Shown: in pieces, positions 1,891-32,864 of the stretch
Numbering within the stretch: the first letter of the stretch is position 1
Layout: the number at the start of each line of letters is the position of its first letter
Assembly: GCF_007995065.1 (NCBI RefSeq)
Contig: NZ_VOQR01000002.1
Location: 112,608 to 176,607 of the forward strand
DNA length: 64,000 bases
Direction: 5' to 3'
From: Sphingomonas ginsenosidivorax
Lineage (GTDB): Bacteria > Pseudomonadota > Alphaproteobacteria > Sphingomonadales > Sphingomonadaceae
Position numbers and translations under genes: made by a program
Notes under the pieces: generated by a model
Databases searched by the model: none
Seen by the model: only the letters and a program-made list of their open reading frames with translations
What the model was told of the DNA's origin: nothing

Positions 1891-2904
1891 TCAACGCGGT
1901 TGGTCGGAGTTCCTTGTCTTGCGGGTGATCCTGCTTACCAATCCGAATAGTCCGGGATGATTCGCCTTATGATAGGATGATCCGACACCCAGCGCGGCGG
2001 TAAGCCGACGGTGCGCCTCTCCCAGGGCGTGATAGGGTAGACTTGGAAGAAGGTGGTGGAGCGCGTGGTAGCGTAAGCCAACAGGGGCCCAAAGCATCGG
2101 CAGCAACGTGGGTGGCGGCACGTTGACTGAATCAAGGTACTGCGCGGTAAGGCTCATTGCCTCCCCCTCATTCTCCCAAAGGTGAGCAGTGAGCGTGCGA
2201 ACTTGGTTCAAGAGCGCGATGCTTGAGCCAATGATTAGTCCGACGATAAAACCGTGCAACGAGATGGTGCCGTATGCCACCATAGCCAACAGCATGATCG
2301 CCCAAACGCTCGCTGCTGCCTCGAGCTGCATAAAGAGCTTGCGAGCGTCACCCGTAGGCATGCGCCGGCGGAAAGACGGGTTGATCGTGAGGGACGAGTA
2401 TCGCTCGATGGCTACTAGTCTAAGCCGTTTGGAGAGCAATGAAAGTGGCGTCAACACCGCAAATCGTAGGATAACCCCGACCGGGGCCATTGCGGAGACG
2501 AGTATGAACAATAGGAGTGTTGACGGCATCATCAGCGCAAGGGACAGATATTCTGGATCGTCCTTGGTTCCGTACCGCGACTTAGCATGATGGAGGTTGT
2601 GGATACCATCATACATGAAGGACGGCACCAGCATCGGTATTCCAACGACAATATTCCAGATCAATCGAAAACCTGGTAGAGCGGCATGCTTGATGTGGCT
2701 TACCTCATGGATAAACGAGAGAGCGCGGTAGAGCGCGAGCACCGAAACAATACCTGCGGCGATCACCACCGGCGTTGTCCTAGCGGACGCGGCGAACATC
2801 AACGCGCCATAGCCGATTACTGCAGCAGCGAGCATATCCACCCAGTAAATGATGGCGCGCGGCCGTTTCAGATCGTGGGTAAGCGCGGCTGCCGTTCGCA
2901 GCAT
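1891..2904 (-). CDS. membrane fatty-acid desaturase family protein
   Basis: A 337-residue integral membrane protein with the three histidine clusters of the membrane desaturase/hydroxylase family: HEVSH, HNLHH and, near the C-terminus, HALHH, which together bind the di-iron centre. Several hydrophobic segments surround them. The reaction should be O2-dependent desaturation or hydroxylation of an acyl or similar lipid substrate, with electrons from a ferredoxin or reductase; the substrate cannot be inferred. The ATG at 2904 was chosen because GAGGAAAA lies just before it and the protein-like sequence begins there. The frame is open much further upstream, but that part overlaps the next gene and looks non-coding. 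The siderophore-interacting reductase upstream lies in the same orientation with a 322-base gap. Confidence 0.82.
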   Translation of the reverse strand: MLRTAAALTHDLKRPRAIIYWVDMLAAAVIGYGALMFAASARTTPVVIAAGIVSVLALYRALSFIHEVSHIKHAALPGFRLIWNIVVGIPMLVPSFMYDGIHNLHHAKSRYGTKDDPEYLSLALMMPSTLLLFILVSAMAPVGVILRFAVLTPLSLLSKRLRLVAIERYSSLTINPSFRRRMPTGDARKLFMQLEAAASVWAIMLLAMVAYGTISLHGFIVGLIIGSSIALLNQVRTLTAHLWENEGEAMSLTAQYLDSVNVPPPTLLPMLWAPVGLRYHALHHLLPSLPYHALGEAHRRLTAALGVGSSYHKANHPGLFGLVSRITRKTRNSDQPR

Positions 2905-3226
2905 TGTCTTTTCCTCGGCACAGCGGCGGGGAGTTTTTAGCTCGGTGCAGGAGGGGGCCGCGACGGAAAGACCGGACGCAAGCTGTACACGCACTCCCTC
3001 GACTGGGTCGTGGGTAACTACCTTACACATAGATCCCTCGATGTTGTTACCGGAAGCATGTCGCCCGCCGCGCGCTACGGCGTTGTCACCATGTGCGCAC
3101 TCCTCGACCGGAACGCGCTCAACTACGGCCGGCGGCTTGGCCTCACGGCTGGCGAGCGTGTCGCGGTGCCGGGTGGCTAGAGCCATGCCCGGCCGCTTGA
3201 TCCAGGTTGCCGAGGATGAGGTCTTC
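2905..3226. other. 322-base gap with an unexplained coding-like frame on the plus strand
   Basis: This spacer between the siderophore-interacting gene and the desaturase is longer than expected for an operon. Frame 1 of the plus strand is open from 2941 to a TAG at 3175-3177 and reads like a protein tail, with segments such as SLDWVVGNYLTHRSLDVV and LNYGRRLGLTAGERVAVPGG. No convincing start or ribosome site precedes it. It may be a gene remnant; no family could be assigned. Confidence 0.3.
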
Positions 3227-3937
3227 CTAGTAGTCACTGTCTTGATCGACATGCTCGATCTCGCCGCATTTCCAGTATCCGGATACATGAAGCGCGGATC
3301 GGTCGAAGCCGATGCGCCCAAACGCACACCGTAGCTCTCGTGCGGCGGTCGCCTCGCAAGCGACCCAAACCTGCGATGTGTCGGGGTTCACGGTCAGCGT
3401 CTTCGCATACTCAGCAAGCAGAACGCCAGGCTGCCGATCGCTGATAATCCAGCTAACCTGGGCGCCATCGTAAGCCGGCAGCGGCTGAACTGCCTCCGGC
3501 GTCGATGCCTCAAGTACTACCACGGTGCGTTCTGCCTGCTGCATCCCCTCTAGTATTGCTGATATAGCGGAGATTGCGGTCTCGTCCCCAAGGAGAAACA
3601 GCTGCTTTCCGGGTATGTGCGAGAAGTTGCTGCGCGGACCTGCTATTTGCACAATTGAGCCAACCTTCGCCGTTTCCAGCCATCGTCCTGCCAAGCCGTG
3701 CCCATGGACGACAAAATTGACATCCATCTCGCATTCCTCAGGCCGCCAAGCCCCGATCGAAAACGCACGACCGTCCGCGCCATTGTCAAAAAAGAGTTTC
3801 ACCCACTGTCCTGGGCGATCACGCGCGAAATGGGCAAGATCCTCACCACCAAGGGTCACGCGCCGCATGCGTGGCGTGACGTCGACGATGCGCTTCACGT
3901 TCGTCTCGTACAGCCTGTAGATTGGCTTGTGATGCAT
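3227..3937 (-). CDS. siderophore-interacting protein (ferric-siderophore reductase, NAD(P)H:flavin type)
   Basis: A 236-residue protein with the two-domain layout of the SIP family: an N-terminal FAD-binding barrel (MRRVTLGGEDL, PGQWVKLFF) and a C-terminal NAD(P)H-binding domain ending in the family signature HVSGYWKCGE. Such proteins reduce ferric siderophores in the cytoplasm to release iron. The flavin motif usually seen as R-x-Y-T-x-R is RAFSIGA here, without the second Arg, whereas the paralogue at 20269-20994 has RAYTVRA. Both paralogues end in HVDxDSDY. A near-perfect Fur box lies 39 bases upstream, so iron-repressed expression is very likely. Confidence 0.9.
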   Translation of the reverse strand: MHHKPIYRLYETNVKRIVDVTPRMRRVTLGGEDLAHFARDRPGQWVKLFFDNGADGRAFSIGAWRPEECEMDVNFVVHGHGLAGRWLETAKVGSIVQIAGPRSNFSHIPGKQLFLLGDETAISAISAILEGMQQAERTVVVLEASTPEAVQPLPAYDGAQVSWIISDRQPGVLLAEYAKTLTVNPDTSQVWVACEATAARELRCAFGRIGFDRSALHVSGYWKCGEIEHVDQDSDY

Positions 3938-4382
3938 CTAACGCTCCTTCGACGCGCCCGCCCAATTCTGATTGGCCTAATGATAATCATTAGCAGATCG
4001 TCTTGCGTAACTGTCAAACGCCATAGAATAATGGGAAGTCGCCCTTTGCCAGCGATGGAAGCTCCGACGTCGCTGCCAGAGGTACCATTGGTCTCGTCAG
4101 ACGTAGGGCCGATGCGGCCATCATGCGGCTGTCGTTAATCAGCCAGCGGATCTGGCAGCCAAGCGCCCGGCTGGCGGAACTCCGTTATCGACTGTCGAGG
4201 CCGAGATAACGCGACGACCCGCAAACACGTATCAGCGGCCGTGCTCATGCGAGAGCCACGACCAAGCGGTTCCTGGCCTCCACAAACTGGCAAGGCGAAC
4301 GGGTGAAGGAGTCGAAGCGAGAGCAGACTCACGCGTCATGTTGGGCTCGCCGCCCACTCGACAACGTAGACCAAAGGATGAC
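3938..4382. other. divergent intergenic region between siderophore-interacting gene and dxr
   Basis: 445 bases. The part next to the minus-strand gene contains the Fur box at 3976-3994. The remainder, up to the dxr start, has no recognisable gene or clear promoter; short open frames here have no protein-like character. Confidence 0.6.
3976..3994 (-). promoter_or_regulatory. Fur box upstream of the siderophore-interacting gene
   Basis: The 19 bases CCTAATGATAATCATTAGC form an almost perfect palindrome around one central A and closely match the classical Fur box. The site lies 39-57 bases before the start codon of the siderophore-interacting gene (3937, minus strand), in the intergenic region shared with dxr. 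Iron-dependent repression of the minus-strand gene is the natural reading; an effect on dxr, some 390 bases away, is less certain. Confidence 0.85.
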
Positions 4383-5552
4383 ATGACCTTGAACAGACGA
4401 AGCGTCACCGTTCTTGGGGCGACAGGTTCGATCGGGAATTCGACCCTCGACCTCATCAATCGTCACCCCGACACCTTCGACGTCGACACGGTGACGGCCC
4501 ATCGTGACATCGTCGGACTCGCCGCTGCGGCTCGCCAATCCAATGCTCGATATGCGGTGATCGCGGACGAGACCAAATATCTTGCGCTCAAGGGACTCTT
4601 GGGCGGAACCGGCATTCAAGTGGCGGCGGGCGCGGACGCGATCATAGAGAGGGCGGGGGCCGGTACTGATTGGACGATGGCGGCGATCGTCGGACTGGCA
4701 GGTCTTGAGCCGATTATGGCGGCCCTTCGGGCAGGGGGGACCGTAGCGCTCGCAAACAAGGAGGCCCTGGTGGCAGCCGGTACGATCATGATGGACGCCG
4801 TTGTCGACCATGGCGCAACGCTGCTCCCGGTGGATTCGGAGCATAACGCCGTCTTCCAGTGCTTTGAGCCCGATCCTGCGCGGATCAGGCGTATCGTCCT
4901 AACTGCCAGCGGGGGGCCGTTTCGCACCTGGTCGTACGAGCAGATGAGGTATGCGACCGTAACACAGGCAGTGAAGCATCCAAATTGGCCGATGGGACAC
5001 AAGATCTCGGTCGATAGCGCCACGATGATGAACAAGGGGCTCGAACTGATCGAGGCACGCCATCTATTCGGCGTCGCGCCTGGCATGCTCGACATCGTGG
5101 TTCATCCGGAATCCATCATCCATTCGATGGTCGACTTCATCGACGGCTCGACGCTGGCACAGATGGGTTGTCCCGACATGCGCGTGCCGATCGCCTATAC
5201 CTTGGCGTGGCCGGAGCGAATGGCGACGCCCTGCGATCGGCTTGATCTTGCTCAGCTTGGTCAGTTGACCTTCGAAAAGCCTGACGAAGACCGCTTTCCG
5301 GCGCTGCGTATCGCGAAATCGGCGCTGTACCAGGGAGGAGCGACACCCGTGATCATGAACGCCGCGAACGAGGTCGCCGTCGCAGCCTTCCTTCAGCAGC
5401 ATATCGGCTTCGCCGATATCATGAAGGTCGTCGAGATGGTGCTTGAGACCTATATGGCTCCAGATCCCGCAGATCTCGACGATGTCCACGCAATCGACGA
5501 GGAGGCAAGGGCGTTCACAACATTCCATTTGAAAGCGGCCGTGGCAGCTTGA
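4383..5552 (+). CDS. dxr: 1-deoxy-D-xylulose 5-phosphate reductoisomerase
   Basis: A full-length 389-residue DXR, the second enzyme of the MEP isoprenoid pathway, which converts DXP to 2-C-methyl-D-erythritol 4-phosphate with NADPH and a divalent metal. Visible motifs are the N-terminal NADPH loop GATGSIGNSTLDL, the NKEALVAAG segment, the metal-binding DSEHNAVFQ, the SVDSATMMNKGLELIEA block with the third metal ligand, and HPESIIHSM. The ATG at 4383 is preferred over an in-frame ATG at 4338 because the family starts there and AAAGGA precedes it. It stands alone, without ispC-linked neighbours such as uppS, cdsA or rseP, which suggests an extra copy rather than the chromosomal gene. A second DXR could buffer against fosmidomycin-type inhibitors; that is inference. 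Confidence 0.93.
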   Translation: MTLNRRSVTVLGATGSIGNSTLDLINRHPDTFDVDTVTAHRDIVGLAAAARQSNARYAVIADETKYLALKGLLGGTGIQVAAGADAIIERAGAGTDWTMAAIVGLAGLEPIMAALRAGGTVALANKEALVAAGTIMMDAVVDHGATLLPVDSEHNAVFQCFEPDPARIRRIVLTASGGPFRTWSYEQMRYATVTQAVKHPNWPMGHKISVDSATMMNKGLELIEARHLFGVAPGMLDIVVHPESIIHSMVDFIDGSTLAQMGCPDMRVPIAYTLAWPERMATPCDRLDLAQLGQLTFEKPDEDRFPALRIAKSALYQGGATPVIMNAANEVAVAAFLQQHIGFADIMKVVEMVLETYMAPDPADLDDVHAIDEEARAFTTFHLKAAVAA

Positions 5553-10010: not shown

Positions 10011-10021
10011 TCGTTTCCTCC

Positions 10022-15170: not shown

Positions 15171-17171
15171 CTACCTTGGTGAGGCCTTGAGTTGCCGTGT
15201 ACGTTCATTCTCCGCGAGCGCCACTTCGTCAGCAGAAATACGAAAGTCCCGATCGTAGTTGAAGGTGTGGCCGATCGCCGTCGCCAGAAGCGCGACGAAC
15301 GCCAATGCCGCGAGCCACCATATGTACCAGATCATCGCGAGCGCAAAAGCTGCTGATATTGCGGCGAGGATGATTCCGGCGCCAGTGTTGCGAGGCATGT
15401 GGATATCGTGGAACCCGATCACTGGACGAACCGCGTTCTTCGACTTCATGTCGTACCAGGCGTCGAGATCGTAGACGATCGGAGCGAAGGCGAAGTTGTA
15501 GGACGGTGGCGGCGACGACGTCGCCCATTCCAGACTTCGGCCGTCCCACGGATCGCCGGTGACGTCGCGCAGTGCCTCACGGTTACGGAAGCTGACGTAG
15601 AACTGGATCAGGAAGGCGGCGATGCCGATCGCGATCATCGCCGCCCCGACCGCGGCGATGATGAACCAGATCTGCAACGACGGGTCCTCGAAGTGGCGCA
15701 GGCGACGCGTCACGCCCATCAGGCCGAGCACATAGAGCGGCATGAAGGCGACGTAGAAGCCGATCGTCCAGAACCAGAAGCTGATCGTGCCCCAGAACTT
15801 GTCGAGCTTGAAGCCGAACGCCTTCGGGAACCAGTAGTTGATCCCGGCGAACATCCCAAACAGCACGCCGCCGATGATCACGTTATGGAAGTGCGCAACC
15901 AGGAACAGGGAGTTGTGCAGGACGAAGTCGGCAGGTGGAACGGCGAGCAGCACGCCGGTTGTGCCGCCAATGGTGAAAGTGACCATGAACGCAACAGCCC
16001 ACATCATCGGTAGCTCAAACCGGATGTTTCCTTTGTACATGGTGAACAGCCAGTTGAAGATCTTGGCACCCGTGGGGATCGAGATGATCATCGTGGTGAT
16101 GCCGAAGAACGAATTGACGCTCGCTCCCGACCCCATGGTGAAGAAGTGGTGCAGCCAGACGAGGTAGGCGAGGATGGTGATGACCAGCAGCGCGTAGACC
16201 ATCGACGTATAGCCGAACAGGCGCTTGCCGCAGAAGGTCGAGGTGACCTCGCTGAACACGCCGAACGCCGGCAGGATCAGGATGTACACCTCCGGGTGAC
16301 CCCAGATCCAGATCATGTTGACGTACATCATGGGGTTGCCGCCCATGGTGTTGGTGAAGAAGTGTGTACCGAGATAGCGATCAAGGCTAAGCAGCGCGAG
16401 GACGGCGGTCAGCACCGGGAAGGCGGCAACGATCAACACGTTGGTGGCAAGCGCTGACCACGTGAAGACCGGCATCTTCATCATGTTCATACCGGAAGCG
16501 CGCATCTTAAGAATCGTCGTGAGCAGGTTGACGCCGGACAGCAATGTGCCAACTCCGGAGATCTGAAGCGCCCATATGTAATAGTCCACCCCGACATCGG
16601 GTGAGTAATCAAGCCCTGACAGGGGTGGCATCGCCAGCCAGCCTGTGCGGGCGAACTCACCCACGAACAGGCTCACCATGACGATCGCTGCGCCGGCCGC
16701 GGTCATCCAGAAGCTGAAGTTGTTGAGGAAGGGGAACGACACGTCGCGCGCGCCGATCTGCAACGGCACGACATAGTTCATCAGCCCGGTGACGAACGGC
16801 ATCGCGACGAAGAAGATCATGATCACGCCATGCGCGGTGAACACCTGGTCATAGTGATGCGCGGGCAAATAGCCATCGTTGGCGCCGAAGGCGATCGCCT
16901 GCTGGATGCGCATCATGATCGCATCCGAAAAGCCGCGCAGCAGCATGACGATGCCGAGAATCATGTACATAATGCCGATCTTCTTGTGATCGACGGAGGT
17001 GAACCATTCCTTCCACAGATAGCCCCACACCTTGAAATAGGTGAGGGCGGATATTAATGCCGCACCGGCCATCGCGACCATCGCAAAGGTCGCAATCAAG
17101 ATCGGTTCGTGGATCGGAAAGCTTTCGAGCGTCAGGCGCCCGAAAATAGTCTTTAACAGCTTTTCGGACAT
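15171..17171 (-). CDS. cyoB: cytochrome bo3-type ubiquinol oxidase subunit I
   Basis: A 666-residue heme-copper oxidase subunit I, close in length to E. coli CyoB, with about 14-15 membrane spans. Key residues are present: low-spin haem His in [10 protein letters not shown], the CuB ligand and cross-linked Tyr in [10 protein letters not shown], CuB His pair in WLHHFFTMG, and haem ligands in [12 protein letters not shown]. The quinol-site residues R79, D83, H106 and Q109 keep the spacing of E. coli R71/D75/H98/Q101, so it is a quinol rather than a cytochrome c oxidase. No subunit II, III or IV gene lies on either side, so this is an orphan subunit that would need partners encoded elsewhere. 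A Fur-family gene lies 89 bases upstream in the same orientation. Confidence 0.95.
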
Positions 17172-18922: not shown

Positions 18923-19414
18923 TCAGGGAATGCTGACCGGTTCGGTGATCTGTACGCTCTGCGGCTTGCCAACCGGCATCAGTGAACCCGCGAGTATGAC
19001 GAGCGGCTCCTTGGAGGGATTAGACGGGGCGAGCACTAGGGTCTCGTTCTCAAGCGCGGTGTCGCCAGGGCTGAGAATAACCGGGTTTGGACCTGCCTTG
19101 ACCTCCATCGGCGGCCCCATGCTCCCGTCCGGGAGTGCCTTGCGCACTACGGCGCTGCCGCCCAAGACACGCAGTGAGAGCCGGCCTGATAGGACGTAGA
19201 TCACCTGCATCCCCGAATGCACCTCACCCGGGATCTTTGCGCCCGGCGCAAATACCACGCGGCGGAGTGAAAGCTCTAGACCGGATGCCGCCACCGGCTG
19301 TCCAGACCCCAGGATAGTCCGGGTGACGCCCTTGACGCCTGCATCCTGTGCCGAAGCTGGCGATGTCATCCCCGTCAGCGCAAGTAAACCAGCGAACATA
19401 AATGTCTTTGTCAT
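18923..19414 (-). CDS. secreted cupin-domain protein
   Basis: A 163-residue protein with a Sec signal peptide (MTKTFMFAGLLALTGMTSPA, cleavage near ASA-QD) and one cupin barrel. The barrel is visible in the segment FAPGAKIPGEVHSGMQVIYV followed by LSGRLSLRVLGG and the second motif GPNPVILSPGDTALENET. The start at 19414 has AAGGAT seven bases upstream. Periplasmic single-cupin proteins of this kind lack an established function. It is the last gene after coq7 on the minus strand, before the terminator. Confidence 0.75.
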   Translation of the reverse strand: MTKTFMFAGLLALTGMTSPASAQDAGVKGVTRTILGSGQPVAASGLELSLRRVVFAPGAKIPGEVHSGMQVIYVLSGRLSLRVLGGSAVVRKALPDGSMGPPMEVKAGPNPVILSPGDTALENETLVLAPSNPSKEPLVILAGSLMPVGKPQSVQITEPVSIP

Positions 19415-19521
19415 GTGGATATCCTTATTTGTCACGCAAGCATGGGTCACCGTAGGTCGAACGTATTATGTCGCGCGCTGCCGTGGCGATTGATATTTTA
19501 CCTGTTGGTGCGATATGACCA

Positions 19522-20109
19522 TTACAGTATTTTGCTGATCGCGATGGCGATCCGGCAGCCGAAGCGGATTGCTCCGTACACCAGCGTATGACCAGGGGTA
19601 TCGTGAGCTCCCGCCGTTATGGCGTGGTCGCGGTGTTCCAGTTCTTCATCCCTGATCCTTGCAACGATGGATGAAAGTTCAGGCTCGCTATCACCCAGCA
19701 AGGCAAGTTGCTCATCGTAGTGCTCTACGACCGCATCTTCGACTGCCTCAGTGCAGGCCATGGCGGCTTCTGGCCCCATAAGGGCAGTGGTCAAGCCGAC
19801 GGCGTACCCAGCTACATGCCACAGTGGGAGAAGGATTGTTGGACGCACGTTCCGGTTGGCGAGGAGTTCGGAGAAGCGCGCGTGATGCTCGCGCTCCTGT
19901 TCCCGCATATGCTGCAGTTCCTCGTGATGGAGATTCTTTCGGTCCAACACCGCGATTTGGCCATCATAGATCCGCACGGCGCCGAACTCACCGGCGTGGT
20001 CGACGCGGATGAGGGCGCGCAACGCTCGCTGGGATGGCCTGTTCGTCGACCTAGCCGAGCCTTCAGAGCGCGCGATTGGGTGTACGCCAGACGTCGCGTT
20101 GCTCACCAT
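19522..20109 (-). CDS. coq7: demethoxyubiquinone hydroxylase, COQ7 family
   Basis: A 195-residue ferritin-like di-iron monooxygenase. All ligand-bearing helices are present: RVDHAGEFGAVRIYDGQ, MREQEREHHARFSELL, MACTEAVEDAVVEHYDEQL and IRDEELEHRDHAI. COQ7 carries out the C6 hydroxylation step that forms ubiquinone, at the inner membrane, using O2. The length agrees with bacterial COQ7. It lies in line with a siderophore-interacting gene upstream, behind a Fur-like box, so it may be made under iron limitation; this would be notable for an iron enzyme and is inference. It may be an extra copy of a normally chromosomal gene. Confidence 0.9.
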   Translation of the reverse strand: MVSNATSGVHPIARSEGSARSTNRPSQRALRALIRVDHAGEFGAVRIYDGQIAVLDRKNLHHEELQHMREQEREHHARFSELLANRNVRPTILLPLWHVAGYAVGLTTALMGPEAAMACTEAVEDAVVEHYDEQLALLGDSEPELSSIVARIRDEELEHRDHAITAGAHDTPGHTLVYGAIRFGCRIAIAISKIL

Positions 20110-20294
20110 GTCTTGTCGATCCGTTCCTTCTTGCCGAGAAGCGTTGGCAGAACTCGGACGAGGTTTTTATCGGTAAACCATACTTGGCTCGCCGGCTCGT
20201 TGAAGCTCGCAATTAGGCCGAAGCGCACGAAGGGCGCTAGCGCACAGGTCTTGTTCCGATGTGTCACGTCAATAGTCACTGTCGCTGTCGACAT
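20103..20294 (-). CDS. small unassigned reading frame between siderophore-interacting gene and coq7
   Basis: A 63-codon frame that overlaps the end of the siderophore-interacting gene by 26 bases and the start of coq7 by 7 bases, filling the gap exactly as a coupled operon gene would. The central part (VRFGLIASFNEPASQVWFTD) has protein-like composition. No family is recognised and no clear ribosome site is seen, so it may be chance. Confidence 0.22.
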   Translation of the reverse strand: MSTATVTIDVTHRNKTCALAPFVRFGLIASFNEPASQVWFTDKNLVRVLPTLLGKKERIDKTW

Positions 20295-20994
20295 GATCCG
20301 ACACTCCGCGCTTCCAGTAGCCCGATACGTGCAGCGACCGCCGATCGAAGCCGAGCTCCAGGAACTCGGCCCGAAGGCGTCGTGCCATGGTACTCTCGCA
20401 CCCGACCCAGATCTGGTCAGTCTCAGGGGTCAGTAGTAGATGACGTCCTACAGCCAGCAGCCCCTCGCCGCCTCGTTCAGGCATTTGCACGACGCTGGAG
20501 TTTACCAGGCCTGCGTTGCTGCAAAGCCGACCGATAGCAGGACGATCTGCGCCCTCGATCACGGCGATGCATGGCGCCCGCTGTGGCAGGCTTTCAAGGA
20601 TGACGCATATCGCGGGAAGGGCGCACTCATCCCCGAAGAGGCAGAGGCGGCGATCAGGATCATGCCGAAAGTCACTGCGGGGACCGTAGAGGCGAACCCG
20701 GCGCCCACGACCTACCTGCCGGATCCATGAGGCGGCAGGGCCGTGCTTTGACGTTTCTCCATGAAGGACGAAATCCATGTCGATCTCGCCTACCGCTGCA
20801 CGCACGGCCCGAACCGTGTACGCGCGCCCTGCAGTCTGCTCGTCGAAGAAGACCTTCATCCACTGACCAGGCAAAAGGTCGTTTAGGTCGCGAAACGCTT
20901 CGCTGCGGAAGGTGACTCTCCGCATTCGCTTCGTCACCTGTTCGACAGACGTCACCTCCGCGTCGAATGCAGGATATCGAGTTTGGAGGTGCAT
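20269..20994 (-). CDS. siderophore-interacting protein (second copy)
   Basis: A 241-residue SIP-family ferric-chelate reductase. Motifs: RMRRVTFRSEAF, PGQWMKVFFDEQ, the FAD motif GRAYTVRAVR, the nucleotide-binding LCLFGDECALPAI and the C-terminal HVSGYWKRGVSDHVDSDSDY, which closely matches the end of the paralogue at 3227-3937. It would reduce imported ferric siderophores in the cytoplasm. A Fur-like box lies about 30 bases before its start. It heads a possible operon with coq7 and perhaps the cupin gene. Confidence 0.9.
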   Translation of the reverse strand: MHLQTRYPAFDAEVTSVEQVTKRMRRVTFRSEAFRDLNDLLPGQWMKVFFDEQTAGRAYTVRAVRAAVGEIDMDFVLHGETSKHGPAASWIRQVGRGRRVRLYGPRSDFRHDPDRRLCLFGDECALPAICVILESLPQRAPCIAVIEGADRPAIGRLCSNAGLVNSSVVQMPERGGEGLLAVGRHLLLTPETDQIWVGCESTMARRLRAEFLELGFDRRSLHVSGYWKRGVSDHVDSDSDY

Positions 20995-21023: not shown

Positions 21024-21042
21024 ATTGAGAATGGTTCGCAAT
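21024..21042 (-). promoter_or_regulatory. Fur-like box upstream of the second siderophore-interacting gene
   Basis: ATTGAGAATGGTTCGCAAT is an imperfect palindrome with arms ATTG.GAA / TTC.CAAT, a common form of Fur site in alphaproteobacteria. It sits 30-48 bases before the start codon at 20994. Its core TGAGAATGGTTCGCA matches the site at 30020-30034 in 12 of 15 bases. Confidence 0.7.
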
Positions 21043-21237
21043 TGTGCAATCGAGATGTCCCGACAAGAGATGTCGATTTTTCGCCACTGACCTACCGAGC
21101 AGGTCATGCTTATGGCGGGTCTGCGTTACTCGATGGCGTAACGACGATAATGGACGGGCGTTTCTTGACCTACTTTGACGGAATGCATGGTGCGAGCTTC
21201 TCAGTGAAATCTCTGAAACGTGTCGAGAGGAGCTGAA

Positions 21238-21819
21238 GTGTCTGACGCCGCATCGACGAAGGCATCTCTGAGGATCGCCCTCAGGCGCGTCAGGCACGAC
21301 TTCCTGAGCGGGCTAAGTGCCGATCAGCGGGATGCGGCCCTCGCGCGAATCGATGCGGCAATAACACCGTTGATCCCCGGTGATGCGGCCGTCGCAGGAT
21401 ACGTAGCGCAATCGGATGAGCCCGATGTTTTGCCGTTCCTAGCAAGCTTGCATGCAGCGGGCCGTCGGGTTCTACTACCGTGCGTACGGCGGCTTGATAT
21501 GGAGTTTTCCGCGTGGTCGCCGGCCGACCCGCTGGTCCCAGGCTATGCCGGCATCCCGATGCCGCAGCTCGGAGGTGATAGCGGCGTGCCCCGCTTCCTG
21601 CTTGTTCCGCTTCTAGGCTTCGATCGGCAGGGCGGCCGGATAGGGCAGGGAGGCGGCTTCTACGACCGTTACCTAGAGCACCGCCCGGAGACGAAGCGGC
21701 TCGGTATTGCCTGGAGCGCTCAGGAAGTAGACGAGGTTCCGTCCGATCCCTGGGATGTCGCGCTGACGGCCGTGGTGACGGAGCTCGAGACTATAGAAGT
21801 CGAGCCTCCCTCATTGTGA
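21238..21819 (+). CDS. 5-formyltetrahydrofolate cyclo-ligase
   Basis: A 193-residue enzyme that converts 5-formyl-THF to 5,10-methenyl-THF with ATP, salvaging folate. Family marks include the basic N-terminal helix (KASLRIALRRVRHDFLSGLS), the substrate segment AGYVAQSDEPDV and the ATP-binding signature GFDRQGGRIGQGGGFYDRYLE. The GTG at 21238 was chosen because GAGAGGA stands six bases upstream; another GTG at 21220 is possible. It is separated by 50 bases from the aldo/keto reductase and may be co-transcribed with it. Confidence 0.9.
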   Translation: MSDAASTKASLRIALRRVRHDFLSGLSADQRDAALARIDAAITPLIPGDAAVAGYVAQSDEPDVLPFLASLHAAGRRVLLPCVRRLDMEFSAWSPADPLVPGYAGIPMPQLGGDSGVPRFLLVPLLGFDRQGGRIGQGGGFYDRYLEHRPETKRLGIAWSAQEVDEVPSDPWDVALTAVVTELETIEVEPPSL

Positions 21820-23955: not shown

Positions 23956-24519
23956 ATGTCCATCGTCGGCGCACGCCTCAAGCCGTTCACCGCTCAGGCG
24001 TATCGCCAGGGCAGCTTTGTCACCGTCAGCGAAGCCGACGTTCTCGGCAAGTGGGCAGTGTTCTTCTTCTACCCGGCTGACTTCACCTTCGTCTGCCCGA
24101 CCGAGCTGGAGGATCTGGCCGACAACGCTGCGACCTTCCGGACAATGGGAGTCGAAATCTACTCGGTATCAACCGATACCCACTTCAGCCACAAGGCCTG
24201 GCACGACACGTCGCCGGCGATCGGAAAGATCGATTTCACCATGATCGGCGACCCCGCAGGTGTCGTCACCAACAACTTCGACATCATGCGTGAGGGCCAA
24301 GGGCTCGCAGATCGCGGCACCTTCGTCGTTGACCCGGACGGCGTCATCCAACTCGTCGAGATCACCTCTGAGGGCGTCGGCCGCAACGCCATGGAACTGC
24401 TGCGCAAGGTGAAGGCCGCGCAGTATATCGCCGCACATCCCGGCGAGGTGTGTCCCGCCAAGTGGGAAGAGGGTGACACGACGCTCGCGCCGTCCCTCGA
24501 CCTGGTCGGCAAGATCTGA
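23956..24519 (+). CDS. ahpC: alkyl hydroperoxide reductase subunit C (peroxiredoxin)
   Basis: A 187-residue typical 2-Cys peroxiredoxin. The peroxidatic cysteine is C47 in DFTFVCPTE and the resolving cysteine C166 in PGEVCPAKW. It reduces H2O2, organic peroxides and peroxynitrite in the cytoplasm and is recycled by AhpF, encoded 69 bases downstream. CAGGAG precedes the ATG. The 146-base upstream region holds AT-rich inverted segments (TTATCCGGCAGAATGTCATT, ATACGGCATAAT), possible OxyR-type sites, though not convincing. Confidence 0.96.
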   Translation: MSIVGARLKPFTAQAYRQGSFVTVSEADVLGKWAVFFFYPADFTFVCPTELEDLADNAATFRTMGVEIYSVSTDTHFSHKAWHDTSPAIGKIDFTMIGDPAGVVTNNFDIMREGQGLADRGTFVVDPDGVIQLVEITSEGVGRNAMELLRKVKAAQYIAAHPGEVCPAKWEEGDTTLAPSLDLVGKI

Positions 24520-24588
24520 CGCCGACGGGCGGAAGGCTGGGGCTTGCACCGGCCCCGTACCGTCGCACCTCTTTTCCGGAGTACTTCC

Positions 24589-26184
24589 ATGCTCGACGCC
24601 AATCTCAGCACTCAGCTTCAGGGCTACCTGACTAAGATCGTTCATCCCATCGAGTTGATTGCTGCACTCGACGATTCGGAGGGATCGCGCGAGCTCCTCG
24701 GACTGCTGCGTCAGATCGAGGCGCTGTCGGACAAGGTGACGGTTGCAGCGGGGGATGATGCGCGTCGCCCATCGTTCCTCATCCGCCGGGCTGGTACGGA
24801 TGTGGCGGTGCGTTTCGCTGGCGTCCCGCTGGGGCATGAGTTCACGTCGCTTGTACTCGCGTTGCTGCAGGTCGGCGGGCACCCGTCGAAGCTGGCGCAG
24901 GACGTCATAGCGCAAATCGCAGCGTTCGAAGGGCCACTCGCCTTCGAAACCTACTTCTCCCTTTCGTGCCAGAACTGCCCCGATGTCGTGCAGGCGCTGA
25001 ACCTGATGAGCGTGCTCAACCCGCAGATCACCCACGTTGCGATCGAGGGTGGGCTATTTCAGGAGGAAGTGGCCGCGCGGTCCATCCTGTCGGTGCCCGC
25101 GATTTTCCTCAACGGAGAACCGTTCGGGCAAGGCCGCATGACCGTGGAGCAGATCGTCTCCAAGCTGGATCACGGCAGCGCCGAGAAAGCGGCGGCCAGG
25201 ATCGGCGCCAAGGATGCGTTCGACGTCCTTGTCGTCGGCGGCGGCCCGGCAGGTGCGTCCGCGGCGATCTATGCAGCGCGCAAGGGCATTCGTACCGGCA
25301 TCGCCACCGAGCGGATGGGCGGGCAGGTGCTCGACACCATGTCGATCGAGAACTTCATTTCCGTTCCGCTCACCGAAGGGCCGCGGCTCGCGGGTGATCT
25401 GGAGCGTCATGTCGCAGAATATGGCGTCGACGTGATGAGCCAGCAGCGCGCGGCCAAGCTCATCCCCGCGTCTTCGGTTGACGGCCTGCACGAAGTGCAA
25501 CTGGAAAGCGGCGCATCGCTGAAGGCGCGGAGCCTGATCCTGGCGACGGGCGCACGCTGGCGGCAGATGAACGTGCCGGGCGAGGACGCCTATCGCAACA
25601 AGGGCGTGACCTACTGCCCGCATTGCGACGGCCCCCTGTTCAAGGGCAAGCGCGTCGCGGTGATCGGGGGCGGCAACTCCGGCGTCGAGGCCGCGATCGA
25701 TCTGGCCGGCGTCGTGGCACACGTCACGCTAATCGAATATGCCGCCGACCTGCGGGCCGACGCGGTGCTTCAGCGCAAGCTTGCCAGCCTGCCCAACGTG
25801 AAGGTCATTACATCGGCGATGACGACGGAGGTCGATGGCGACGGAACACGTGTGACGGGGCTGACCTACAAGGACCGCAACCACGATGCGGTCCACCAGA
25901 TCGAACTGGAGGGCATCTTCGTCCAGATCGGCCTCATCCCCAATACCGAGTGGCTCCGCGAGGCCGTCGCATTGACGCCGCACGGCGAGATCGAAGTCGA
26001 TCATCGGGGGGAGACATCGGTGCCAGGCATCTTCGGTGCGGGCGACGTGACCACGGTGCCCTTCAAACAGATCGTGATCGCGATGGGCGAGGGTTCGAAG
26101 GCGTCGCTGGCAGCGTTCGATCATCTCATCCGCCTGCCGCTGGAAACGGAGGTTGACGCAGCGGAAACGATGCTCGCCGCCTGA
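24589..26184 (+). CDS. ahpF: alkyl hydroperoxide reductase subunit F
   Basis: A 531-residue flavoprotein that passes electrons from NADH to AhpC. The N-terminal double thioredoxin fold has its redox pair C127/C130 in LSCQNCPDV. The FAD domain starts with [20 protein letters not shown] and the second redox pair is in [16 protein letters not shown]-binding [15 protein letters not shown] and the C-terminal [20 protein letters not shown] complete the pattern. The ATG at 24589 follows GGAG with family-like sequence; an upstream ATG at 24544 adds non-conserved residues. It forms an operon with ahpC and ends at a hairpin. Confidence 0.96.
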
Positions 26185-26298: not shown

Positions 26299-27381
26299 TT
26301 AGATGTCGGCTTCGAGCCATTTCGCCACTGCGTCGTCGAGCGCCACGCGTGCCACATCCGACGAAACGCTTCCCAGTGCATCCGCGACGAATGAGGTCAT
26401 TAGCATCGCCTGCGCGGAGCGTGGCGAGATACCCCGGCTCATCAGGTAAAAGAGTGCGTCCTCATCCAGTGCGCCCACGGTCGCCCCATGGGCGGCAAGG
26501 ACATCGTCTGCGTAGATCACCATCTCGGGTTTGAGATTGATCGTTGCCGCACGATCTACGAGCATGCCGCGTAGATTCTGAACGGCGTTTGTCTGCGTTG
26601 CATAGCGAGAGATATGTACCCTCGACGCCAGACTGACGACCGCCCGATCGGAGGCGACCGCGCGCCAGGTCTGACGGCTCGAAGCGCCTCGCGCGAGATG
26701 GTTTACCGCAACTACAGCTTCCTGTCGCTGGTCGCCACGGGCAAGGAGGGCGCCGCCATATTCGACATGGGCGTCGGCCGCCAAAAGGTCGATCGTCGCG
26801 TCGACGCGTGTGGCTGCGCCGCCTAGCCCCAGAACGGTCGATTGCAATGACGCGTCAGACCCGATGTCGATCGCATCGCGTAGGGAGGTGAAGCCTGAAC
26901 TTTGCATTAGTCGCACCGTGCGGTGCAATTGGGAGCCAGAGGCGAGGCGAATGTGCGTCCAGCGATTGGCCCAACCATCGCCTATGTAGGTTTCAAGCAC
27001 CGCCGCACGAGTGCCTTCCTTCAGGCTGATACGAGCAGGCGCGTGACTGGCGCCCCCTGTCGTCAGATGAATGATCTCAATCAGGTCAGTCTGCTCGCCG
27101 GCTGATTCGATAGGGAGTGTCCACCCTCCTTCGACGCATAGCTTGCCAAGTGGATGGTTGCTGTTGGCCGCGAACGACGATCCGAGGCGGATTGGCCCGG
27201 GACGACTGCGCCCAGGCCAGTATTTGCCGTTAACGAAAACCAGTCGCGGGCCGTGGCCCACCCAGAACGGCGTGAGATCGGCATTTGGGCTCAAGACCGG
27301 CGCACGCATGAGTTCGGGCAGTGCAGAGAGGTCCGACCAGCGCCAATCTTCATCGCGAGACGATGGAAGTGCCAGCGTCAT
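26299..27381 (-). CDS. sufD: Fe-S cluster assembly protein SufD
   Basis: A 360-residue SufD, scaffold partner of SufB in the SufBCD complex. The core beta-helix domain and C-terminal helical domain are present, with the conserved AAHGATVGALDEDALFYLMSRG that includes the active-site His. SufB-SufC-SufD transfer persulfide sulfur and iron into nascent clusters. The start overlaps the sufC stop by 4 bases. The N-terminus (RDEDWRWSDLSALP) has the family's R-x-E-x-W-R/K-YT-like motif. No sufS, sufE or sufT follows; the operon ends here. Confidence 0.92.
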   Translation of the reverse strand: MTLALPSSRDEDWRWSDLSALPELMRAPVLSPNADLTPFWVGHGPRLVFVNGKYWPGRSRPGPIRLGSSFAANSNHPLGKLCVEGGWTLPIESAGEQTDLIEIIHLTTGGASHAPARISLKEGTRAAVLETYIGDGWANRWTHIRLASGSQLHRTVRLMQSSGFTSLRDAIDIGSDASLQSTVLGLGGAATRVDATIDLLAADAHVEYGGALLARGDQRQEAVVAVNHLARGASSRQTWRAVASDRAVVSLASRVHISRYATQTNAVQNLRGMLVDRAATINLKPEMVIYADDVLAAHGATVGALDEDALFYLMSRGISPRSAQAMLMTSFVADALGSVSSDVARVALDDAVAKWLEADI

Positions 27382-28130
27382 GCGACATTCTCCAGAAGCG
27401 GTGCATAGCCGTCGGCCTCGAGCGACAAAGCAAGCTCTGCCCCACCGGATCGGAGGATCCGTCCGTCAGCAAGGATGTGCACGAAATCCGGCCGCACGTA
27501 ATCGAGCAGTCGCTGATAATGGGTGATCAGGATCACCGCCTTGTCCTGCTTGCGCATGATGCGGTTGATGCCCTCGCCGACGGTTCTCAGCGCGTCGATG
27601 TCGAGGCCGGAGTCTGTTTCGTCGAGAATCGCAAGTGCGGGGTCGATGATACCCATCTGAACCATCTCGTTGCGCTTTTTCTCGCCGCCGGAGAAGCCGA
27701 CATTCACCGGTCGCTTGAGCATCTCCATGTCAAGGCCCAGTGCGGCAGCCTGCACGCGGGCAAGCTTTAGGAACGCCGCACCCGAAAGCTCCTTCTCGCC
27801 TCGACTGATGCGCTGAGCATTGAGGGCGGTACGTAGGAACTGAAGATTGGAAACCCCCGGGATTTCGACTGGGTACTGAAAGCCTTGAAAAAGGCCGGCA
27901 TTAGCACGTTCGTGAGGAAGCAGCTCGAGCAGATCCTTACCCAGGAAGGTCGCCGAACCCTGCGTCACATCATAGCCTGGCTTCCCGCCCAGCACGTTGG
28001 CAAGGGTCGACTTGCCTGCGCCGTTTGGTCCCATAATCGCGTGGATCTCACCGGGTCGGACGTCGAGCCATACTCCTTGGAGGATAGACTTGCCGTCCAC
28101 CTCGGCCTGCAGACCTTCGACTTTCAACAT
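27378..28130 (-). CDS. sufC: Fe-S cluster assembly ATPase SufC
   Basis: A 250-residue ABC-type ATPase with Walker A GPNGAGKSTLANVLGG, signature FSGGEKKRNEM, Walker B LAILDETDSGLD and the switch His in ILITHYQRLL. It powers the SufBCD scaffold. It lies 58 bases after sufB and overlaps sufD by 4 bases, so the three genes form one operon. Confidence 0.96.
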   Translation of the reverse strand: MLKVEGLQAEVDGKSILQGVWLDVRPGEIHAIMGPNGAGKSTLANVLGGKPGYDVTQGSATFLGKDLLELLPHERANAGLFQGFQYPVEIPGVSNLQFLRTALNAQRISRGEKELSGAAFLKLARVQAAALGLDMEMLKRPVNVGFSGGEKKRNEMVQMGIIDPALAILDETDSGLDIDALRTVGEGINRIMRKQDKAVILITHYQRLLDYVRPDFVHILADGRILRSGGAELALSLEADGYAPLLENVA

Positions 28131-28188: not shown

Positions 28189-29661
28189 TCAGCCCACCGA
28201 GCCTTCGAGACTGATGCTAAGCAGTTTTTGTGCTTCGACCGCGAACTCCATCGGAAGTTGCTGCAGCACCTCCTTCGCGAAGCCATTTACGATGAGCGCG
28301 ACTGCGTTCTCCTGGTTCAGGCCACGCGACATCGCATAGTAGAGTTGCTCGTCCGATATCTTTGACGTCGTCGCCTCATGCTCGATCTGTGCCGAGGAAT
28401 TTCGTACCTCGATGTAGGGGACGGTGTGCGCCCCGCAGCCATCGCCCAGCAACAGAGAATCGCATTGCGTGAAGTTACGGACGCCGGACGCGGCCGCGCC
28501 AACTCGCACAAGCCCGCGATAGGTGTTGTCGCTCGTTCCGGACGAAATACTCTTGGAGACGATCGTCGAGCGTGACCCCTTGCCAAGATGAATCATCTTG
28601 CTGCCCGTATCGGCCTGCTGCCTGTTGCCAGTGACCGTGACGGAGTAGAATTCGCCAACGCTGTTTTCCCCCGCCAACACGCAGCTGGGGTACTTCCACG
28701 TGATCGCTGAGCCGGTCTCGACCTGGGTCCAACTCACCTTGCTGCTCTTACCCTGACACAGAGCGCGTTTGGTTACGAAATTATAGATGCCGCCTTTGCC
28801 TGCCGCGTCACCAGGGTACCAATTCTGAACCGTGGAATACTTGATTTCGGCATTGTCGAGCGCGACAAGCTCAACGACTGCGGCGTGGAGTTGATTTTCA
28901 TCCCGTTGAGGGGCCGTGCAGCCTTCAAGATATGAAACGTACGCACCCTTCTCCGCGATGATCAAAGTGCGCTCGAATTGTCCTGTATTAGCTGCATTGA
29001 TCCGGAAATAGGTGCTCAATTCCATTGGGCACCGTACGCCTTTCGGTACGAAGACGAAGGTACCGTCAGAAAAGACCGCCGCGTTGAGCGCGGCGAAATA
29101 GTTGTCGTGTGACGGCACGACCCTACCAAGCCACGCCCGCACTAGGTCGGGATGTTCACGGACCGCCTCGGAAATCGGACAGAAAATTACGCCGACACGT
29201 TCCAGCTCAGCGCGAAAGGTTGTCGCAACAGAGACGCTGTCGAACACAGCATCAACTGCAATTTTGCGGGCACCTTCAACACCGGCAAGCACTTTCTGCT
29301 CTTCTATCGGGATGCCGAGCTTCTCGTAAACAGCCAGGATCTCCGGATCGACCTGATCGAGGCTGTCGAGCTTCGGTTTTGGCCGCGGCTCGGCGTAGTA
29401 GTACGCATTCTGATAATCGATCGGAGGTATCTGAAGCATCGCCCAGTCCGGCGAAGCCATCTCGAGCCATCGGCGATAGGCCTTGAGCCGCCATTCGAGA
29501 AGCCATTCCGGCTCCCCCTTTTTCGCGGATATGAAGCGCACTGTATCTTCGCTCAGGCCCTTAGGAGCGAAGTCCTGCTCGATATCAGACGAAAAGCCCC
29601 ATTTGTAGTCGGAGGCATCCTCAACCGCTTGCAGGGCAGCGCTGTTGCGCGTTTCAGTCAT
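28189..29661 (-). CDS. sufB: Fe-S cluster assembly protein SufB
   Basis: A 490-residue SufB scaffold. The conserved C-terminal region ([20 protein letters not shown] and [20 protein letters not shown]) contains the Cys that receives sulfur and the residues that contact SufC. The start at 29661 gives the expected family length; upstream residues to 29739 are not family-like, but the ribosome site is weak (TTGGA). This first gene of the suf operon is not preceded by an IscR/SufR-type regulator or followed by sufS, so it is a reduced BCD set. A Fur-like site lies 360 bases upstream. Confidence 0.93.
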
Positions 29662-30019: not shown

Positions 30020-30034
30020 TGATAATGATTCGCG
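30020..30034 (+). promoter_or_regulatory. Fur-like box in the sufB-nrdJ spacer
   Basis: TGATAATGATTCGCG follows a T-rich stretch and resembles the Fur-like core at 21026-21040 (12 of 15 bases) and half of the classical box GATAATGAT. It is 360 bases from sufB and directly adjoins the orphan plus-strand frame, so its target is uncertain. Confidence 0.45.
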
Positions 30035-30288: not shown

Positions 30289-30515
30289 AGGAGCTGCACT
30301 CACGGAGTTCGCGTAGTTTGGCATCCGATGAGCCACGGCCCGTCGTTCGCTTCCGTGATGCGTCCTTTGCAAAGACCAAAGGACGGGAGTCACGCTGCAG
30401 ACATCCGTACGACCCGTCATGTGAAGTATCAGCCTGCGGCTTTGGCAGGCTGCACACCCCCAACCTTCTGAGGATCGGCGTGCTTACGCCGCTTCAGAGG
30501 GACACGGGATCGCGA

Positions 30516-32864
30516 TTACCCACATTTGCTGTAACCACACTGGTAGCAGGTGAGGCAGCCCTCGATCTTGTGCGCGGTGTTGCGCTTGCAGTTCGGGCAG
30601 GTTTCGCCGGTCTCGGGAGTGTCCTCGGCGAACAGTTCCTGCTGCGGCGCCGAATGCTGGCGCAGGATGCGGCCGATCAGCGCGATCAGGCTTGGCGCGT
30701 AGGTGCCTTTCTTTTCATGCTCAAGCCGGACCAGCGCACCGCCCTTGGGCGAATGGACCCGCTCCAGTTCCTCGAACAGGAAGGTCGCGTCACCGCGCCG
30801 GCAGGCAGCCGAGAGCGTGCGGGTCAGCGCCGCCATCGTCTCGAAATTCTCCACCGACGAGGTCGAGATGAAGATCTCGAACGGCACGCGGCGGCCGTCG
30901 GCATGCGTATAGTCGTTGATGGTGAGATAGTAATTCTCGCCATCGATCGGCCATTTGATCTTCACCGTCTTGCCCGGCAGCACCTGCGGGCGGGTGAGGA
31001 TGTCGTCGTTGTTGACCGCCGGGGCAGCCTCGGCGGCGACGGCGGGCTTGGCGTCTTCCTTGATCGACAGCACCGAGCCTCGCACCCCGCTCGGACGGTA
31101 GGTGGTGCAGCCCTTCATGCCCTCGTGATAGGCGGTGAGATACACCTCGCGGAACGCCTCGTAGCTCATCTCGGCCGGGCAGTTGATCGTCTTGGAAATG
31201 GCGGCGTCCACCCAGCGCTGCGCGGCGGCGGCGACGGCGATGTGATCGTCCACCGACAGCTCGAGCGCACCGACCATGTAATCGGGCAGCGGCGCCGACG
31301 CGTCATAGCCGGGCAGGCGGGTGTAGAGATACCAGCCGTAGTCCTGGACCTCGAACTGCTCGGTCTTCTGCTCGACCGCGGTCTGCTCGATGACGACGGT
31401 GCGGTTGTAGTGCCAGCTGAAGGTCGGCTCCACGCCCGAGCTGACGTTGCCGTAGAAGATCGAGGTGGTGCCGGTCGGCGCCAGCGTCAGCAGCACGCCG
31501 TTGCGGATGCCGTGCTCGGCAATGGCAGCGCGCAGCTCGGCAGGCAGCTTCTGAAGGAAGGGCGCCTTGGCGAACTGCTCGGCATCATAGGCCGGGAAGG
31601 CGCCACGCTCCTGCGCCAGCTCCACCGAGGTGCGATAGGCCTGGATCGCGATCGCCTCGCCGACCTGCTCGACCAGCGGTACCGAGGCCCGGCCATAGCG
31701 GACCATCATCTGCTGGAGCAGATTGCCGAGCCCGGTATAGCCGAGGCCCACGCGGCGCTTGTTGAGCGCCTCGGCCTTCTGCTCCGCGGTGGGGAAGGGC
31801 GAGGTGTCGAGGACGTTGTCGAGGAAGCGGACGCCGGTGGCGACCGCGGCGCGCAGCCGCTCCCAATCGACCCGGGCACGGTCGGTGAACGGATCAAGCA
31901 CCATGTTGGCGAGGTTGACGTGGCCGAGGTCGCAATCGCCGTTCGGCGGCAACGGCTGCTCGCCGCACGGGTTGGTCGCGGCGATCGTCTCGCAATAGTT
32001 GAGGTTGTTGAGCTTGTTGACGCGATCAATGAAGATCACGCCGGGCTCCGCGAACTCATAGGTGGTGCGCGTGATCAGGTCGAACAGCTCGGCGGCGGGC
32101 AGGCGCCGATAGATATACCAGGGACGGCCGTCCTTTTCGGTGACGCCGACATGCTGGCCATCGGCGCGCGGCACGTGGAAGCCGAGGTCCCAGTCCTCGC
32201 CCTTCTCCAGCGCAGCCATGAAATCGTCGGTGACGGTGACCGAGACGTTGAAGTTCTTGAGGAAGTCCTTGCGGGTCTTGGCGGTGATGAAGGCGAGCAC
32301 GTCCGGGTGCCAGACCGGGAGCACGCCCATCATCGCGCCGCGGCGCGAGCCGCTGGAGCGGATGGTGACGCACATGCCGTCCCACATCACCATGAACGGG
32401 ATCACGCCCGACGAGATCGAGCCTGTCCGCCCGACGATCGCCCCATCAGGACGGATGGTACCGAAATCCATGCCAATGCCGCCGCCTTGCTGCTGAGTGA
32501 AGGCCGCAACGCTGAGGGCCGGCATGATGCCGACACCTGACAGCCCCGGTTCCGTATCCATGGAGTCCTGGATAGTCGGACTGACGAAGCAGTTAATCCA
32601 GGTGACGCGCTTGTTGGTCCCCGCGCCCGCAAAGATCCGCCCGCCCGGAACCCAGTCGCGTGCTTCAAGCGCAGCAAGCCCTTTGGAGGCGTGATCCGCG
32701 TCCTGGGCGTAAACTCCGTCGACTACGCGTTTGAAGGTCGCCGACGGGCTCGCTTCGTCGGCATGACGGTACTTCTCGCGCCATATGTGTACCGTCACCG
32801 GCTGGTCCAGCGGCCCACCGACGTTCCCACTCTCTTCAATCTTAGCGTCGACGATTGTCGTCAT
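30516..32864 (-). CDS. nrdJ: adenosylcobalamin-dependent (class II) ribonucleotide reductase
   Basis: A 782-residue class II RNR that makes deoxyribonucleotides without oxygen or a di-iron centre, using adenosylcobalamin. Catalytic segments: first redox Cys in VTWINCFVSP, the N-x-C-x-E loop in AATNPCGEQPLPPNGDCDLG, and the second Cys of the pair in YHEGMKGCTTYR. The C-terminal zinc-ribbon-like tail CPNCKRNTAHKIEGCLTCYQ-CG that re-reduces the active site is complete. ATG 32864 was chosen; upstream codons to 32918 are not conserved. No cobalamin riboswitch was recognised upstream. An O2- and iron-independent RNR fits the iron/oxygen theme of the neighbourhood. Confidence 0.95.
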   Translation of the reverse strand: MTTIVDAKIEESGNVGGPLDQPVTVHIWREKYRHADEASPSATFKRVVDGVYAQDADHASKGLAALEARDWVPGGRIFAGAGTNKRVTWINCFVSPTIQDSMDTEPGLSGVGIMPALSVAAFTQQQGGGIGMDFGTIRPDGAIVGRTGSISSGVIPFMVMWDGMCVTIRSSGSRRGAMMGVLPVWHPDVLAFITAKTRKDFLKNFNVSVTVTDDFMAALEKGEDWDLGFHVPRADGQHVGVTEKDGRPWYIYRRLPAAELFDLITRTTYEFAEPGVIFIDRVNKLNNLNYCETIAATNPCGEQPLPPNGDCDLGHVNLANMVLDPFTDRARVDWERLRAAVATGVRFLDNVLDTSPFPTAEQKAEALNKRRVGLGYTGLGNLLQQMMVRYGRASVPLVEQVGEAIAIQAYRTSVELAQERGAFPAYDAEQFAKAPFLQKLPAELRAAIAEHGIRNGVLLTLAPTGTTSIFYGNVSSGVEPTFSWHYNRTVVIEQTAVEQKTEQFEVQDYGWYLYTRLPGYDASAPLPDYMVGALELSVDDHIAVAAAAQRWVDAAISKTINCPAEMSYEAFREVYLTAYHEGMKGCTTYRPSGVRGSVLSIKEDAKPAVAAEAAPAVNNDDILTRPQVLPGKTVKIKWPIDGENYYLTINDYTHADGRRVPFEIFISTSSVENFETMAALTRTLSAACRRGDATFLFEELERVHSPKGGALVRLEHEKKGTYAPSLIALIGRILRQHSAPQQELFAEDTPETGETCPNCKRNTAHKIEGCLTCYQCGYSKCG

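Follow-up and report, generated by a model that had tools for sequence, protein, structure and literature searches.

A plasmid-borne set of iron, oxygen, and Fe-S cluster genes with Fur-like sites in Sphingomonas ginsenosidivorax

In Escherichia coli, the suf operon constitutes a second iron-sulfur (Fe-S) cluster assembly system beside isc and is controlled by Fur and OxyR. Caulobacter is reported to have a single isc-suf operon, for which the regulator is IscR rather than Fur (PMC3751524, PMC11475020) and which responds to low iron but not to oxidative stress (PMC11475020). Measured against that description, a Fur-switched sufBCD would therefore add a second tier of the E. coli kind. Core enzymes of Fe-S assembly and respiration are usually viewed as chromosomal and hard to transfer. 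Here, we describe a kit of 12 such and related genes on a plasmid of Sphingomonas ginsenosidivorax, located in a window of 64,000 nucleotides (G000:C2:112608-176607) that lies at the very end of a contig of 176,607 bases (C2). The plasmid-borne set and its recurrent fur-coq7 core are real; a role of the set under low iron is plausible, if unproven.

The plasmid gene set and its chromosomal partners

The kit comprises two genes for siderophore-interacting (SIP) reductases (sip1 and sip2), fur, coq7, cyoB, ahpC-ahpF, sufBCD, a class II ribonucleotide reductase (RNR) gene (nrdJ), and dxr (Table 1). All genes named by the initial annotation were recovered as open frames with Pfam and NCBIfam matches, and the stretch is accessory as proposed, since it lies on a plasmid: C2 contains RepC, ParB, and Trb-type transfer genes (TrbE/VirB4-type and TrbL), and the genome's other contig, of 3,958,997 bases, is the chromosome (3.96 Mb). 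The SIP genes had been described as a pair; they are 16 kb apart. The genes had also been placed outside their usual operons, and this applies to cyoB, coq7, dxr, and fur, which lie away from their usual neighbors, but not to sufBCD and ahpCF, which stay together. The expected active-site motifs were kept in all 10 kit proteins checked by alignment to PDB structures and by motif checks, on residues that we take to be functionally important; the intact types include catalytic, heme, CuB, quinone-site, metal, and Walker motifs. The heme, CuB, and quinone-site residues of subunit I are present in the plasmid CyoB. The plasmid Fur keeps HPDV, RYE, HHDHLID, and TVYRT (recognition helix and metal-site His/Glu) and scores under the NCBIfam Fur equivalogs, whose names point to other lineages (best NF051891, 69 of 200 bits; PRK09462, 60 of 146). 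A lost metal ligand in this Fur, at what we presume to be the place of the second-site His, was dropped as a candidate peculiarity; the chromosomal Fur is also without that His.

Duplication relative to the chromosome had been assumed by the initial annotation. A chromosomal counterpart was sought for 10 of the 12 genes (all except ahpC and ahpF), and second versions exist for seven, with identities of 43 to 81% (SufB, 81%; CyoB, 80%; SufC, 77%; DXR, 57%; Coq7, 51%; SufD, 43%; and Fur, 49% to the nearer of two chromosomal FUR-domain genes). The chromosomal RNR is an NrdA adjoining NrdB and is 26% identical to the plasmid NrdJ, which scores as NrdJ_Z, class II, with 513 bits against a cutoff of 400. 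A search of the whole genome gave two SIP matches, both on the plasmid, and none on the chromosome. Because the SIP genes are the sole copies in the genome and NrdJ differs in class from NrdA-NrdB, these genes add a function and do not back one up. The picture of a complete spare set, with a chromosomal counterpart for each gene, thus did not hold. The suggested back-up kit describes the seven genes with second versions, and Fur-like sites do stand upstream of three units, but it does not cover the SIP genes and NrdJ. Among the genes tested, the two SIP genes alone were the only copies in the genome, an outcome that the initial annotation had named as speaking against itself.

The plasmid enzyme sets are partial. 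Chromosomal CyoA, CyoC, CyoD, SufS, NrdB, the FeS_assembly_P (SufT-like) protein, and the Rrf2-type regulator had no plasmid match at an E-value of 1e-5, and chromosomal CyoB, SufD, and NrdA (to NrdJ) did match in the same search. The plasmid therefore has sufB, sufC, and sufD without the cysteine desulfurase gene sufS, and subunit I of the bo3 oxidase without subunits II, III, and IV; the full cyo subunit set is present on the chromosome, and the chromosomal suf operon begins with the Rrf2-type regulator gene. Thus, the plasmid CyoB and SufBCD can work, if at all, only with chromosomal partners. NrdJ scores above its model cutoff, and no NrdB match accompanies it on the plasmid.

A recent duplication within this genome was rejected for the genes compared (SufB, SufC, SufD, and DXR), since the proteins of other sphingomonads resemble the host's own chromosomal copies more closely than they do the plasmid versions. 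Median identity over 31 loci of other sphingomonads was 50% for the plasmid SufD versus 60% for the chromosomal one, and 76% versus 84% for SufC; SufB gave 82% versus 90% (2 loci) and DXR 60% versus 78% (1 locus). Of the 31 loci, 29 entered the comparison because they gave the best matches to the plasmid SufD within the genus, a bias that runs counter to the result.

Fur-like sites, the fur-coq7 link, and spread

Fur-like sites were scored against a generic palindrome, TGANAATNATTNTCA, rather than with a genus-specific matrix. The window contains 3 sites that have no more than 2 mismatches versus 0.71 expected, and 4 of 100 shuffles reach 3. The three best matches are exactly boxes 1, 2, and 3, so that the three sites proposed by the initial annotation are real. 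Box 1 differs from the 19-bp classical Fur box by 3 mismatches (0.01 expected). A separate pattern was written after viewing box 2, and its low expectation (0.09) was not used as evidence. The placement of the sites constitutes better evidence than their count: in the nonredundant 154.6-kb plasmid, no sites with up to 2 mismatches were found beyond boxes 1, 2, and 3, which precede sip1, sip2, and sufB. For three random sites, the probability that each lands no more than 400 bases upstream of one of the 12 kit genes is about 3e-4, a value calculated after the fact. Genome-wide, one mismatch or fewer is reached at two places, box 1 and G000:C1:2261069-2261083 (L089:1501), the sole chromosomal site of this quality. 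No Fur-like sites were found in 71 kb of chromosomal loci, where few are expected, so that this result says little.

Protein-level relatives pointed to a link between fur and coq7. Six exact contig sizes, with matching sources, occurred both among the 40 best matches for Fur and among the 39 best others for Coq7 (82,960, 13,118, 108,688, 6,380, 5,411, and 5,755 bases); jittered sizes gave 0.05 shared on average and a maximum of 2 in 2,000 draws. This linkage was judged from the exact size and sources, not from contig DNA. Four of these contigs are shorter than 14 kb, so that the two genes are close there, and on the 82,960-base contig both are labeled Sphingomonas sp. BK069. In the window, 1.7 kb separates the two genes, compared with over 1.5 Mb between the chromosomal ones of this genome. 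The Fur and Coq7 trees had congruent distances over seven pairs (r = 0.86, p = 0.006), as computed without two Coq7 rows that are wrong-strand translations (L099 and L101). The plasmid Coq7 falls in a 19-row clade apart from the chromosomal Coq7 (support, 100/98) in a tree that includes those two rows. The plasmid Fur likewise lies in a clade separate from the chromosomal Fur and is grouped with the rows from the 108,688-, 6,380-, 5,411-, and 5,755-base contigs, in a set of 17 rows (support, 97) and, in a second tree, of 10 rows (100/98); both groupings carry a long-branch warning, and all roots are midpoint only. The 108,688-base contig also has a SufD of the plasmid type. In a quick tree, in which P0055, P0024, and the chromosomal row were flagged as long branches, this SufD and P0024 group with the plasmid SufD and its three near relatives, away from the chromosomal SufD rows (support, 96).

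Close relatives of the plasmid versions are few. When 5.8 billion proteins were searched, three near relatives of the plasmid SufD stood out among the best 120 matches (80, 65, and 62% identity), followed by values of 55% or less. Relatives of the plasmid Coq7 reach 84% (Sphingobium sp. HWE2-09), 82% (JGI), and 77% (BK069), and those of Fur 79% (BK069) and 78 to 90% (JGI). A kit common to the genus was rejected among the genomes surveyed. When the plasmid SufD was compared to 295 genus genomes (own included; 291 matched), four matches occurred only in its own genome, and G171 and G281 had three; among the matches listed, none other exceeded 52%. For Coq7, none other exceeded 57% among those listed from the 295 genus and 397 family genomes (overlapping sets); one genome (G601) had two Coq7 matches, the best with an E-value within the ordinary range. 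The best SufD match in the contig search was that of Sphingomonas montanisoli (51%), and a comparison of its locus to 29 window proteins gave matches limited to SufB, SufC, SufD, and an aldo/keto reductase. Other plasmid records contained no close copies: Coq7 had four matches, all at 43% or less; for Fur, 89 of 89 were under 60%, the best listed being 51% across 63% of the length; and for SufD, 106 of 106 were under 60% (best listed, 46%). Among named organisms, sphingomonads have the nearest relatives of SufD, NrdJ, DXR, Coq7, and Fur, and the best CyoB and SIP2 matches among plasmid records are rhizobial. Phage cargo was rejected as an origin, as pattern scans revealed no Fur or Coq7 relative in viral contigs. 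The literature search, judged from titles and abstract openings of the papers listed (for some searches a portion of the total) and with subscription journals mostly outside its reach, gave no report resembling a plasmid-borne set or duplicates of this kind and no papers on strains HWE2-09 and BK069.

Table 1. Features of the plasmid gene set (window positions)
Feature	Position	Strand	Basis and remarks
sip1, SIP-type FAD reductase (siderophore-interacting)	3227..3937	-	Pfam SIP and FAD_binding_9; plasmid-only
Fur-like box 1	3976..3994		38 bases upstream of sip1; 1 mismatch to 15-bp palindrome
dxr-2, 1-deoxy-D-xylulose 5-phosphate reductoisomerase	4338..5552, start perhaps 4383	+	Pfam and NCBIfam
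cyoB, cytochrome bo3 subunit I, orphan	15171..17171	-	TIGR02843 above cutoff
fur, accessory	17261..17836	-	Pfam FUR, 101 bits, above cutoff
Small glyoxalase-like (VOC) protein	18216..18623	+	Weak: Pfam E-value 0.006, under cutoff
Cupin protein	18923..19435	-	Pfam Cupin_2
coq7, accessory, demethoxyubiquinone hydroxylase	19522..20109	-	Pfam COQ7
sip2, second siderophore-interacting reductase	20269..20994	-	Pfam SIP; best solved relative ViuB chain 8c4l; plasmid-only
Fur-like box 2	21024..21042 (15-bp core 21026-21040)		Core 31 bases upstream of sip2; 2 mismatches
5-Formyltetrahydrofolate cyclo-ligase	21220..21819	+	Pfam
ahpC	23956..24519	+	TIGR03137 above cutoff
ahpF	24544..26184, start perhaps 24589	+	TIGR03140 above cutoff
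sufD, accessory	26299..27381	-	Pfam SUFBD_core; NCBIfam TIGR01981 168 of 222 bits, under cutoff
sufC, accessory, ATPase	27378..28130	-	TIGR01978 above cutoff
sufB, accessory	28189..29661 (ATG at 29661; open frame to 29739)	-	TIGR01980 above cutoff
Fur-like box 3	30020..30034		358 bases upstream of sufB ATG, between nrdJ and sufB; 2 mismatches
nrdJ, class II (B12-dependent) RNR	30516..32918, start 32918 or 32864	-	TIGR02504 above cutoff; T. maritima NrdJ 1xje

The first 22,054 bases of C2 are repeated at 154,565-176,607 (99.9% identity, 23 gaps, 0 mismatches). The replicon is therefore most likely circular (about 154.6 kb) and left unclosed in the assembly, with window positions 41,958 to 64,000 as its redundant end. 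This end copy contains frame breaks, and a DNA polymerase III alpha-type gene (1,087 amino acids at C2:13730-16993) is split into three pieces there. No relaxase or coupling protein was recognized among the scanned plasmid genes, which are part of the called genes. Just left of the kit, an integrase, a resolvase, and a transposase with rve domains (C2:109848-111969 and window 978-1808) mark a possible entry point. The 9.6 kb separating dxr from cyoB contain GntR regulators, hydrolases, and an amidohydrolase, none with an evident connection to iron; three GntR/FCD-type regulators lie in a row on one strand (8458-10732), a DUF1636 protein (11920-12333) is flanked by an alpha/beta hydrolase and an amidohydrolase, and adjoining cyoB is a gene (13897-14715) for a 272-amino-acid protein that apparently has a signal sequence, lacks a confident match in Pfam and NCBIfam, and is perhaps an outer membrane barrel as judged by eye. 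Elsewhere on C2, a catabolic stretch at 67 to 86 kb (L022:7471-18801, L023:1923-5747) contains thiolase, GMC oxidoreductase, SMP-30 lactonase, FMN dehydrogenase, catechol-type dioxygenase, MFS, and TonB receptor genes.

Explanations for the gene set

We give an even chance to the reading that the set is a mobile kit for low iron, borne by a plasmid that has transfer genes, with parts that plug into the chromosomal machinery. In such a kit, the plasmid or the chromosomal Fur would repress the sip genes and sufBCD when iron is present, and these genes would be switched on when iron drops. The SIP proteins would then release iron from siderophores, SufBCD-2 would team up with the chromosomal SufS for extra Fe-S assembly capacity, NrdJ would supply deoxyribonucleotides without the di-iron subunit of NrdA-NrdB, AhpCF would clear peroxide, and CyoB-2, in a hybrid oxidase with the chromosomal CyoA, CyoC, and CyoD, would maintain ubiquinol respiration together with Coq7-2. 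The iron response, the hybrid complexes, and the benefit of the kit are what we infer from sequence. The sip genes with their nearby boxes fit ordinary Fur control of siderophore use. Box 3 stands upstream of the plasmid sufB, which is without the Rrf2-type regulator gene that adjoins the chromosomal sufB. The role of CyoB-2 and Coq7-2 is the weakest part of the mechanism; they may be forms suited to low iron or low oxygen, or resistant to a toxic compound. A further and more tentative proposal, possible in our view, is that an old and undescribed mobile sphingomonad unit with a fur-coq7 core and sufBCD (possibly also cyoB, nrdJ, and sip) as cargo provides its host with a second tier of Fe-S assembly and ubiquinone respiration, switched by Fur, by bringing in catalytic parts only and borrowing the rest from the chromosome.

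Several observations weigh against the low-iron reading. With up to 3 mismatches, matches to the palindrome show no excess (11 found, 8.65 expected), and the number of Fur-like sites is by itself weak evidence. The sites stand at three transcription units only, with none supporting iron control of cyoB, coq7, ahpCF, nrdJ, or dxr, and consensus promoters in 15 to 33.1 kb are at chance level (3 found, 5.8 in shuffles). CyoB and Coq7 require heme or iron and DXR neither, so that the set is not simply iron saving. When a doubtful 3,776-base contig, whose match may be due to chance, was included, the congruence of Fur and Coq7 fell to r = 0.43 (p = 0.066). The BK069 fur-coq7 contig is missing from the best 120 SufD matches, and therefore sufD may not always belong to the unit. 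GC content at third codon positions is mixed across the kit genes (0.63 to 0.86), and thus the genes may have arrived at different times. The last two points, together with the 9.6 kb between dxr and cyoB, would suit independent acquisitions on a large plasmid without a common function, the true unit being fur-coq7 and perhaps suf. We consider such accretion rather unlikely, as seven second versions of iron and redox housekeeping genes, both SIP genes, and all three Fur-like sites of the plasmid lie within 30 kb and the plasmid-type SufD is located on the same 108,688-base contig as Fur and Coq7.

With cyoB and sufBCD as isolated parts of chromosomal complexes and dxr standing alone, the set would also suit the replacement of targets hit by a toxic compound, such as a metal, a chelator, a redox-active phenolic, or nitric oxide, iron being incidental and the plasmid versions being inhibitor-tolerant isoforms, on the model of plasmid-borne resistant target enzymes. 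The plasmid does carry aromatic catabolism, an RND pump, and a cation-efflux gene with MerR. Target substitution appears unlikely nonetheless: CyoB keeps its heme, CuB, and quinone-site motifs and DXR its metal and substrate motifs without change, this reading leaves both SIP genes and the Fur-like sites unexplained, and no single inhibitor known to us acts on all of the targets. A trigger by peroxide or damaged Fe-S clusters in place of low iron would account for ahpCF, the second suf, and an RNR without a di-iron subunit. We hold such an oxidative-stress kit to be very unlikely, since the Fur-like sites adjoin genes that handle siderophores and since the isc-suf operon of Caulobacter is reported to respond to low iron but not to oxidative stress (PMC11475020). 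If the low-iron reading is true, low-iron physiology would be acquirable by one transfer, with the regulator and intact, partial enzyme sets traveling together, and hybrid complexes of chromosomal and plasmid subunits would become directly testable.

Comparison with known systems

Like the suf operon of E. coli, the plasmid genes form a second Fe-S assembly operon beside the housekeeping one and have a Fur-like site. Unlike that operon, they comprise sufBCD only, lie on a plasmid without a sufS match, and stand beside a housekeeping chromosomal system that is itself a suf operon. The order sufB-sufC-sufD is that of the host's own chromosomal suf and of the Sphingomonas parapaucimobilis suf (record "plasmid unnamed5"), but both of these include genes for a regulator and a cysteine desulfurase together with SUF accessory genes, and the plasmid SufD is only 43 to 46% identical to theirs. 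NrdJ coexists with the chromosomal NrdA-NrdB, as class II enzymes do as alternatives to class I; the best match in plasmid records is 74% identical (Novosphingobium sp. RL4), and the difference here lies in the position of nrdJ beside a second suf and fur. Alphaproteobacterial plasmids such as that of Azospirillum thermophilum carry full cyoABCD operons with a CyoB about 80% identical to the plasmid CyoB, whereas the S. ginsenosidivorax plasmid carries subunit I alone.

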